Source: an uncultured Prochlorococcus sp. (GTDB lineage Bacteria; Cyanobacteriota; Cyanobacteriia; PCC-6307; Cyanobiaceae). Taken from it: a stretch of DNA of 64,000 bases. Numbering within the stretch: the stretch's first letter is position 1; the number at the start of each line of letters is the position of its first letter. The DNA is taken from positions 1 through 64,000 of the forward strand of contig NZ_CACMSM010000003.1 of the NCBI RefSeq assembly GCF_902616385.1, given 5' to 3'. A program made the translations under genes and the position numbers. Positions 50,192-53,851 of the stretch are shown here, piece after piece. The notes under the pieces are model-generated. The model ran no database searches. It was not told the DNA's origin and was given only the letters and a program-made list of their open reading frames with translations.

Positions 50192-50941
50192 TTATTTTTC
50201 AATTGCATATTGCCATTCGTTATTTTGAGATAAACTTTTCTCTCTAAGTAACTGTAATTTCCTACTATTTATTTTTATAACTATCCCATTAGTTGGGTAT
50301 TTCGCAAATATTTTTTTCTCTAACCAATGTTTTTTATATATTTGGATTTCGCTTGTATGATTTGTGAAGTAACTGTCAGGGGTGCTAAAGCCACATTTTT
50401 TAAGATAGTTAAGGGTTTCGTATTGATTAAGTCTTCCATTAAGTATTTGGAAACAGCAAAGGCGGAGACTTTCTCCAATCCCTTTCTTATCATTGAGGTA
50501 TTTTCTTGTAATTCTTTGGGAAATGCCGGCAACTTGGTTTGTAGCGTATAGTTCACCTCTAATTTGAAAATCTCGTTTGATAGGAATACAATCGGGGACA
50601 TTTTTAATTTGTTTAATTTTGCTTGAGACATCAAATCCTTTTTTTGTAATAGCTTTATTAAACTTGCCATCTATATATCTAATTGCAATAGCACAGCCAT
50701 CAATTTTTGGTTGAATGCTTAATCTTGTTTTTGATAATAAACTTTCACAAAATTCTTTATAGTTTTCTTTAGCTAATTTTGGCAAAAGTTTATTATTTTT
50801 TTGATTAAAGTAGTCAGGCTTTGGATCAACAGGAATAAAGAGTTTTTCAAGTTGCTTAAATGCATTATCCGAAATTATACCTTTACCTATTCTGTATTGT
50901 TCATCCAGATACTTAACATCTCTCACTAATAAATTATTCAT
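50192..50941 (-). CDS. Stand-alone NAD-dependent DNA ligase-like adenylation domain
   Basis: 249 aa. A LigA-like nucleotidyltransferase core: RLSIQPKIDGCAIAIRY has the KxDG active-site lysine (K79), DFQIRGELYA the RGEL motif and NGIVIKINSRKLQ the motif-V region. A short N-terminal part (KGIISDNAFKQLEKL) resembles the NMN-binding domain Ia, degenerate. OB-fold, zinc finger, HhH and BRCT domains are absent, whereas LigA is about 670 aa. It may be a mini-ligase, an accessory adenylyltransferase or a relic. Confidence 0.85.
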   Translation of the reverse strand: MNNLLVRDVKYLDEQYRIGKGIISDNAFKQLEKLFIPVDPKPDYFNQKNNKLLPKLAKENYKEFCESLLSKTRLSIQPKIDGCAIAIRYIDGKFNKAITKKGFDVSSKIKQIKNVPDCIPIKRDFQIRGELYATNQVAGISQRITRKYLNDKKGIGESLRLCCFQILNGRLNQYETLNYLKKCGFSTPDSYFTNHTSEIQIYKKHWLEKKIFAKYPTNGIVIKINSRKLQLLREKSLSQNNEWQYAIEK

Positions 50942-51217: not shown

Positions 51218-52378
51218 ATGTCATTTTTATTAAAAGCTCAAAATACCTGGGAAAATTTTGCGAAATACAAAATTAATGATTATGCAAAATTAAGAAATTT
51301 TGATTTTGGGCCAAATAATGAAAGTTCAGTTTCAAAATTATCGCCTTTCATTACTCATAGAATATTATCGGAATATGATCTAATTCATGATGTTAAAAGT
51401 AAGTACAAAATCAAAAATTCAACTAAATTTGTTGAAGAAATATTTTGGAGAGTTTACTGGAAAGGGTGGATGGAAAATAGACCTAAAGTTTGGAGAAATT
51501 TTATTTCAGAAAACAATTTCGATTTTGATTATGAGCTATATGAAAGTGCAATTAATGGCAATACAAAATTAGATTTTTTTAATTCTTGGGTCCATGAATT
51601 AAAGCAGTACAACTATTTGCATAACCATACAAGAATGTGGTTTGCGAGTACTTGGATATTTAATTTAGGCCTCCCATGGCAATTGGGAGCAAAGTTTTTC
51701 TTTAAATATCTTTTTGATGGAGATGCTTCATCTAATCTCCTTAGCTGGAGATGGGTCGGAGGATTGCAAACGAAGGGAAAACAATATCTTTTTTCATCAT
51801 CAAACCTTAAAAAGTTTTCAAATAATAGATTTAATGTAGAAAAAATAAGTAATCAACAAATTTTTCTTGAAGAATCTAATCAAATACCATTTGAAGATGA
51901 GATTTATAAAAATGATATGGATCCTAAATCAGATAATCTTATTATGTTTGAAAATGATCTGCACCTTGCAACCCTTAAAAATTTACTTCCAAGCTATAAA
52001 AAAGTATTTATTATCCTTTTAAAAAATGAACAAAGACAAATTAAATTGTCTGAATCTGTTTTGAAATTTAAACAAGATTTGGTCTCTGAATTTGTAGAGC
52101 AATTTGATAATGTTGTACAGATTGATCCTAATTCACTGGAAAATACTTTTAAAAATACCAACGAAATAGACATTATTTATCCTGGAGTGGGAGAAAATTA
52201 TGATTTCATAACTGAGTTTAAAAATTTACACCATAAAAAAATTTTTAATCTTGTGAGGGATGAAGATTTATTTGCTTGGAAATTTGCTAAAAGAGGGTTT
52301 TTTAAATTTAAAGAAAATATTCCAAAAATAAATCAGAGAATATTAGAAAATTTTTCAAAAAATAAATTTTTAACTTAG
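51218..52378 (+). CDS. Photolyase/cryptochrome FAD-domain protein with C-terminal alpha/beta region
   Basis: 386 aa. Residues about 1-215 match the FAD-binding C-terminal domain of photolyases (NYLHNHTRMWFASTWIFNL, LFDGDASSNLLSWRWVGG). The N-terminal antenna domain is missing. Residues about 235-386 form an alpha/beta region opening NLIMFENDLHLATLKNLLPS, like the antenna-domain start (VWFRxDLRLxDN). This suggests a domain order opposite to ordinary photolyases. Substrate and light function unknown. Confidence 0.8.
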   Translation: MSFLLKAQNTWENFAKYKINDYAKLRNFDFGPNNESSVSKLSPFITHRILSEYDLIHDVKSKYKIKNSTKFVEEIFWRVYWKGWMENRPKVWRNFISENNFDFDYELYESAINGNTKLDFFNSWVHELKQYNYLHNHTRMWFASTWIFNLGLPWQLGAKFFFKYLFDGDASSNLLSWRWVGGLQTKGKQYLFSSSNLKKFSNNRFNVEKISNQQIFLEESNQIPFEDEIYKNDMDPKSDNLIMFENDLHLATLKNLLPSYKKVFIILLKNEQRQIKLSESVLKFKQDLVSEFVEQFDNVVQIDPNSLENTFKNTNEIDIIYPGVGENYDFITEFKNLHHKKIFNLVRDEDLFAWKFAKRGFFKFKENIPKINQRILENFSKNKFLT

Positions 52379-52508
52379 TTGAATTCCAAATCAGAAAATA
52401 ACCCTTTTAGTAAGTGAGTATAAATACTTATTTAGGTGCGACTTTTGCTCTTTAATCCACGATGGATAATGTGACTAGTTATTTTTACTTAAGGTTAAAC
52501 TTTTAATA

Positions 52509-53060
52509 GTGCTTTCAACAATTCTTACAAAGTCGTTTAGCAAAGATACTGCTTTATTAATTCTTAGAGTCATAACAGGAACTGTTCTTATTCATCACGG
52601 TTATGAGAAACTAGCAAATATAGAAAATTTCGCTGATGCTTTTGTAAGACCATTACATCTTCCATTCCCAATATTTTTATCGTACATAGCGGCATTTTCA
52701 GAAATAGGTGGTAGTTGGTTACTAATCATTGGCTTAGCCACAAGATTCGGAGCTTTGGCAATTGTTGGAACAATTTCTGTCGCCATATACCATGCACTAG
52801 TTACTTCAGGTTTTAATATTTTCTTACTAGAACTTTTGCTTTTGTATTTCGCTTCAGCAACTTCAATTGCATTGACAGGTCCTGGTAATTTCTCCTTAGA
52901 TGAAGTCATTATCAGAATTTTGAAATCAGAAGATGAGGAGGATATTATACTTTCAACAAAATCAAAACCTTCCAAGCAAATTGAAGTTAAAGAAGAGATA
53001 AGTAAAGGTGGCTTATTTCAATTTTTGCAAGCTAACATACTCTCAGATACTTCAAGCTAG
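52509..53060 (+). CDS. DoxX-family membrane protein
   Basis: 183 aa with four membrane segments: LLILRVITGTVLIHHGYEKL, then ISYIAAFSEIGGSWLLIIGLATRF-type segment and VGTISVAIYHALVTSG. The C-terminal 50 residues are a charged tail, probably soluble. GTG start. Related to the 25852 product in fold only. Confidence 0.85.
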   Translation: MLSTILTKSFSKDTALLILRVITGTVLIHHGYEKLANIENFADAFVRPLHLPFPIFLSYIAAFSEIGGSWLLIIGLATRFGALAIVGTISVAIYHALVTSGFNIFLLELLLLYFASATSIALTGPGNFSLDEVIIRILKSEDEEDIILSTKSKPSKQIEVKEEISKGGLFQFLQANILSDTSS

Positions 53061-53224
53061 CTTTTTAGGATAAAGGTTATTGATTAGCTCTAACCTTTTT
53101 CGATAACTGTTCCTCTTCTCAAGTTTTATCTTAATAGTTGCTTCAGAAAGACTTATAAATAGGCCTATAGCTGTCACCCAAGATAAAAATATAACAGGGT
53201 TTTCTGGAATTTCTGAGAAATTCA
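53051..53224 (-). CDS. Small membrane protein (57 aa)
   Basis: MNFSEIPENPVIFLSWVTAI then GLFISLSEATIKIKLEKRNS: one membrane helix, basic tail. Overlaps the 3' end of the DoxX gene by 10 nt, convergent. No family recognised. Confidence 0.58.
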
Positions 53225-53299
53225 TTTGAATAATACTTCTTTTTTAAAACTGACTGATCACTATATGTTTTTCAACCTAAATATACAATTTAGAAATAT

Positions 53300-53851
53300 T
53301 TAAGGATTAATTTCAACCTTTTTCCATTTATTAATCTTTTCCCAAAGATATCGTTTATGAACAGGCTGTTCTAATTTAAGAAGATCTACTGAATCGATTT
53401 CAAAATTTAGGACTACAAAATTTTCTGACTTGGGTAGATTGGATAATATTTTATAATTAGATTGGACTTTTAGGTTTATTTTGTCTCCAGGAGATCCCCA
53501 AAACCAAGAAGATTTTGATTTTTCTGATAATAAATCCCAATAATTTTTGTTATCACTTAATTCATGTATTTTTCCTTTGAATCTATATTGTGATTTGGTT
53601 TTCAAAAAGAACCATAATATTTCTGCATTAGGGTTAGATTTTAAATGCCCAATTTTTTTACTTCTTCTATCAGTAAAAATAATCATTGAACTATCTTTAT
53701 GCCATCCTCTGAAAACAACTGTTCTTAATCTTGGCTCATTATCTTCGCTGACTGTTGCAAGCTGTATCCATTTATTAGAGGGTGATTTGCCCTCTTTTTT
53801 TCTAGAAGATTTTAAATCTTGCCTCCAACTGGGTAAGTTGTTATCAGGCAT
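53300..53851 (-). CDS. Pyridoxamine-phosphate-oxidase-like FMN protein
   Basis: 183 aa split-barrel flavoprotein (Npun_F5749/Alr4036 branch). WIQLATVSEDNEPRLRTVVFRGW and TDRRSKKIGHLKSNPNAEILWFF match the FMN-binding region; C-terminal end HKRYLWEK. It resembles PdxH but lacks the PdxH substrate motif, so the reaction is unclear. It overlaps the upstream gene by 8 nt. Confidence 0.86.
   Translation of the reverse strand: MPDNNLPSWRQDLKSSRKKEGKSPSNKWIQLATVSEDNEPRLRTVVFRGWHKDSSMIIFTDRRSKKIGHLKSNPNAEILWFFLKTKSQYRFKGKIHELSDNKNYWDLLSEKSKSSWFWGSPGDKINLKVQSNYKILSNLPKSENFVVLNFEIDSVDLLKLEQPVHKRYLWEKINKWKKVEINP

Follow-up and report, generated by a model that had tools for sequence, protein, structure and literature searches.

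The locus considered here lies in a 64,000-nucleotide stretch of DNA (the window) from a high-light Prochlorococcus, and it raises the question of whether a photolyase can carry its two domains in reversed order and, if so, what the second of them is. The open reading frame, which begins with a conserved ATG start codon, encodes a protein of 386 amino acids that is very probably Phr7, the representative in Prochlorococcus of the NewPHL (short photolyase-like) group and an inverted-order CPD photolyase. Its membership in this family is given by both sequence and tree; homologs within Prochlorococcus share 71 to 97% identity with it, and Prochlorococcus genomes supply the closest named matches (97%). 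The features to which the text refers are the following.

51218 to 52378, forward strand: phr7 (NewPHL) gene, a probable inverted-order photolyase of 386 amino acids (open reading frame, full-length homologs, AlphaFold2 model)
51236 to 51817, forward strand: N-terminal FAD-binding catalytic domain, residues ~7 to 200 (FAD_binding_7 match, alignments with photolyases of the PDB)
51437 to 51448, forward strand: E74 and W77, counterparts of the class I CPD-binding Glu and Trp (family alignment; invariant in 39 NewPHL rows)
51620 to 51637, forward strand: H135-N136-H137-T138-R139-M140, with the FAD/CPD-contacting Asn and the CPD-type Met (aligned with class I MHNRCRM)
51716 to 51754, forward strand: DGDASSNLLSWRW, residues 167 to 179, with FAD-binding D167, D169 and N173, the proximal electron-transfer Trp W177, and W179 (aligned with class I DGDLAANNGGWQW; invariant columns)
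51818 to 51922, forward strand: linker, residues 201 to 235, at the position where a standard FAD domain has its C-terminal third and Phr4/Phr6 have their Fe-S cysteine region
51923 to 52375, forward strand: C-terminal Z-domain, residues 236 to 386 (folded part ~236 to 383), a predicted five-strand alpha/beta domain, HUP/Rossmann-like (AlphaFold2, Foldseek)
51944 to 51967, forward strand: MFENDLHL, residues 243 to 250, at the end of strand 1 and in the loop after it (four of the seven fixed letters of WFRxDLRL)

The inverted layout is ordinary for this lineage and already known. The Phr7 proteins of high-light (HL) and LLI Prochlorococcus have been described as an N-terminal FAD domain followed by a C-terminal Z-domain, without Fe-S cysteines (mBio 2022, PMC9426592), and the protein of the window agrees with them in genus, in the FAD-then-Z layout, in the absence of Fe-S cysteines and in the accompanying gene complement of Phr1 to Phr3, with no difference found between the two. 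In particular, the host genome holds three other members of the photolyase family, namely a class I enzyme (L001), L002 and a PhrB-like protein (L004), which we take to be Phr3, Phr1 and Phr2 of that study, respectively. The NewPHL group itself was described in 2020 (Emmerich 2020, NAR gkaa1147, as cited in PMC9426592 and PMC13274461), and an inverted domain topology is reported for NewPHLs/SPLs (PMC13274461).

The domain order was confirmed. A Pfam scan of the whole protein placed FAD_binding_7 on residues 71 to 191 with 51.9 bits (cut-off, 27 bits) and returned no other family above its cut-off; in the same scan, the antenna domain PF00875 had no match anywhere, N terminus included. Furthermore, sequence searches of the PDB aligned residues ~7 to 200 with residues ~210 to 415, that is, the FAD domain, of class I and class III photolyases, from which it follows that the FAD domain of Phr7 is truly N-terminal. 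Thus, the original prediction stands in its description of an N-terminal FAD-binding domain, of an alpha/beta region after it and of an order opposite to that of normal photolyases. The FAD_binding_7 match covers only positions 1 to 127 of the 203 of the model, the last third being absent, so that Phr7 does not correspond to a whole normal photolyase with its domains exchanged.

In the family alignment, E74, W77, N136, M140, W154, D167, D169, N173, W177 and W179 coincide with the residues responsible in class I for FAD binding, CPD binding and electron transfer, and all 10, N136 and M140 included, are invariant in 39 relatives. We take E74 and W77 to be the equivalents of E283 and W286 of the A. 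nidulans photolyase. M140 is the residue of CPD type, and the CPD-type catalytic set is intact. The same alignment showed no obvious counterpart in Phr7 of the outer electron-transfer Trp of class I (W306 in E. coli) and none of the four 4Fe-4S cysteines, which are present in Phr4/Phr6 of Synechococcus; one Fe-S cysteine is retained by many relatives from proteobacteria and from LLI strains, and where many of the proteobacterial members keep a single Cys (ECF/DCF), Phr7 has lost it and presents F120-F121. The class I CPD photolyase of the host (L001) shares the FAD-domain catalytic residues of Phr7, but it has the antenna first and a complete FAD domain.

The region downstream of the linker, in which hardly any helix or strand is called in the AlphaFold2 model, is predicted with confidence as a separate fold. 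The whole protein was modeled with a pLDDT of 90.5 and a pTM of 0.90, and residues 232 to 386 alone with a pLDDT of 89.2, as five strands alternating with helices; in these models, the Z-domain is a separate alpha/beta domain of the Rossmann/HUP-like fold class. The structure of Phr7 is a prediction, since the PDB searches gave no match by sequence to a solved structure with the inverted architecture; no viral structures with this architecture were found either. No Pfam model covering the Z-domain was found, and residues K285, P322, G325, N327, D350, G360 and F364 of this domain are invariant in the relatives. The Foldseek search of the Z-domain against the PDB returned nothing below an E value of 0.001, and its two scores point in different directions: the best E values (2e-3; TMq, ~0.43) are those of CoaD/PPAT, for which Phr7 also has a weak NCBIfam match, whereas the top TM scores are those of the antenna domain of PhrB photolyase (0.52 for 5kcm and 0.54 for 6dd6). 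Mouse CRY1 is also among the matches. The HUP superfamily includes CoaD as well as the photolyase antenna. The FeS-BCP/PhrB (6-4) photolyases, represented in the host by the PhrB-like protein L004, differ from Phr7 in having the antenna first, an HHIERLM active site and a different lesion.

Full-length relatives with the same order occur in Prochlorococcus (HL and LLI), SAR11, SAR86, OM182, Pseudohongiella, Puniceispirillum, Rhodobacteraceae and many other alphaproteobacteria, the nearest proteobacterial ones sharing ~40 to 49% identity with Phr7. Both domains are common to Phr7 and the alphaproteobacterial members of the class; indeed, hhalign found the Z-domain of the marine group to be homologous to the C-terminal domain of the other alphaproteobacterial relatives (97.7%; E, 2.3e-12). 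Marine genomes of the Synechococcus family instead encode Phr4 and, after it in a frame of its own, Phr5 or, in one genome, a single Phr6-like frame of 463 amino acids; reversed Phr4/Phr5 and Phr6 are described in PMC9426592. These proteins of Synechococcus/Cyanobium share with Phr7 the FAD domain in first and the alpha/beta domain in second position, but they are encoded by one or two genes, have the four Fe-S cysteines and, in Phr5, retain a recognizable antenna (96% in profile comparison with the class I antenna). Single frames of the Phr6 type, with an FAD domain and then a recognizable antenna domain, were seen in two Synechococcus-family genomes (L027 of G105 and G054:C1:1787380-1788420). 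Short relatives that consist of the FAD domain only also exist (L167 to L174); L167 and L169 to L173 are photolyase-like proteins of 246 to 309 amino acids from alphaproteobacteria, and the Fe-S cysteines are present in some of these and absent from others. In the FAD-domain tree, from which the reference NewPHLs A8LJA9 and M7YZC8 were left out and whose bootstrap was not fully settled, all Z-domain proteins fall on one branch (100/100), the FAD domains of the Phr6/Phr5 type join those of Phr7/NewPHL and are separated from class I (100/97), and the marine clade that contains Prochlorococcus is otherwise proteobacterial (99/94).

Four readings of the protein deserve to be weighed, two of which concern its nature and two the origin of its Z-domain. 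A FAD_binding_7 match that stops after 127 of the 203 model positions could suggest a decayed photolyase fragment or a frameshifted pseudogene, but the same truncation occurs in all relatives; the conserved length and a dN/dS of 0.09 to 0.30 in the N- and C-terminal halves, both of which are under purifying selection, rule this reading out, and we assign it virtually no weight. The superfamily of photolyases and cryptochromes has repeatedly seen its members switch function, and Phr7 could for this reason be a blue-light receptor of the cryptochrome kind rather than a repair enzyme. We consider this improbable, since the CPD-contacting residues are all intact and the characterized members of the group, as far as they are described in the sources cited here, repair CPDs.

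The two readings of the Z-domain are both compatible with the identification of the protein as Phr7, and a diverged antenna and an independently recruited HUP module appear about equally likely as its origin. If the layout is a true circular permutation, the Z-domain would be a diverged antenna, perhaps still able to bind a pigment, relocated by one reversal shared with Phr5/Phr6 of Synechococcus, a reading that we regard as plausible, if a little short of an even chance. The HUP-like fold with its top TM scores to the PhrB antenna, the recognizable antenna that Phr6/Phr5 have in the same C-terminal position and the common grouping of the FAD domains speak for it. The opening MFENDLHL, to which the original prediction had drawn attention as antenna-like, is indeed present, but its likeness to WFRxDLRL is weak: the charged letters are changed, and when the domain was shuffled, 4.6% of the shuffles reached a score of 4 out of 7 (p, ~0.05). 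Nor did profile comparison link the Z-domain to an antenna, with probabilities of 0.1 to 0.9% for class I, 0.1 to 9.5% for Phr5, at most 18.6% for class I and Phr5 pooled and 0.1 to 2.7% for PhrB; this test is insensitive, as the class I and PhrB antennas used as a control reached only 2.4% with each other, and since it misses that pair, its negative outcome cannot exclude homology of the Z-domain with the antenna. The best E values, moreover, lead to CoaD, another family of the HUP superfamily. These values and the NCBIfam match would instead favor an unrelated HUP/Rossmann module, similar to nucleotidyltransferases, recruited onto a short FAD-only photolyase, and short FAD-only relatives do exist; against such a recruitment, the TM scores to PPAT stay below those to PhrB, and the comparison with the CTP_transf_like profile was negative (1.4%). 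The recruitment, too, seems to us a serious candidate at somewhat less than even chances. Of the permutation or domain swap originally proposed, the fold and its similarity to the PhrB antenna are therefore borne out, whereas the incomplete FAD domain, the missing profile link and a motif close to chance are not in its favor. Since fold, shared position and FAD-domain grouping agree with a single reversal, it is allowable to hypothesize, tentatively, that NewPHL/Phr7 and Phr4-Phr5/Phr6 derive from one ancient event in which the moved antenna domain came to fill the role of the C-terminal helices that had been lost.

As Prochlorococcus nests in a marine clade that is otherwise proteobacterial, a transfer from proteobacteria is indicated; phr7 probably reached Prochlorococcus from marine proteobacteria, the direction of the transfer being deduced from the sequence tree. 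In the full-length tree, HL and LLI Prochlorococcus come together, although not strongly (87/85), and a related SDR gene adjoins phr7 in both. Independent acquisition of the gene by HL and by LLI, at which the FAD-only tree hinted, was discarded, being supported neither by the full-length tree nor by the neighboring genes. A viral origin was likewise set aside: the profile scan of viral contigs gave no relative, and the single-protein scan gave one contig with a 42-residue gene end (L035). The first 1208 bases of this IMG/VR contig (L035, 1 to 5126) match positions 52244 to 53451 of the window at 91% (the end of phr7 and a DoxX gene), and the remainder looks cyanophage-like, with a MoxR-like ATPase and a VWA-like protein of 734 amino acids; it is either a chimeric assembly or a phage with host DNA.

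With regard to the neighborhood, a gene divergent from phr7 (50192 to 50941, reverse strand) encodes a stand-alone adenylation domain of an NAD-dependent DNA ligase, of 249 amino acids (PF01653; E, 4.5e-18; KIDG motif), which lies next to phr7 in only two of the seven other HL loci checked (L068 and L071). In the LLI loci L015, L018 and L021 (1 to 4100), phr7 comes after genes for a PhrB-like photolyase and a peroxiredoxin and is in turn followed by the SDR gene, and three SAR11 loci (L085, L087 and L098) have a PhrB-like gene at most 3 kb from their phr7 relative. The PhrB-like gene near phr7 in LLI and SAR11 possibly reflects a photorepair gene cluster that Prochlorococcus has in common with the likely donors.

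As for function, PMC9426592, citing Emmerich 2020, places Phr7 in the class whose members in Dinoroseobacter and Methylobacterium, according to that citation, repair CPDs of single-stranded DNA. By analogy with the characterized NewPHLs, Phr7 would be a light-dependent CPD repair enzyme acting mainly on, and with a preference for, single-stranded DNA. Both FAD and the DNA lesion would be bound by the N-terminal half; the Z-domain may stand in for the last third that the FAD domain lacks and close the FAD pocket. The Emmerich abstract reportedly describes the C-terminal domain as sealing the FAD site. Under blue or UV-A light, reduced FAD would donate an electron to the cyclobutane pyrimidine dimer, which would split and return the electron, while photoreduction of FAD would proceed via W177 and probably also W154.

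The analysis of this locus confirms an inverted-order photolyase in one of the commonest marine phototrophs, and the family survey shows that the inverted layout is widespread in bacteria of the sunlit ocean, among them SAR11 and SAR86. If the Z-domain is a relocated antenna, the domain order of a photolyase would have been reversed with the active site intact, which would bear on the ancestral form of these enzymes.
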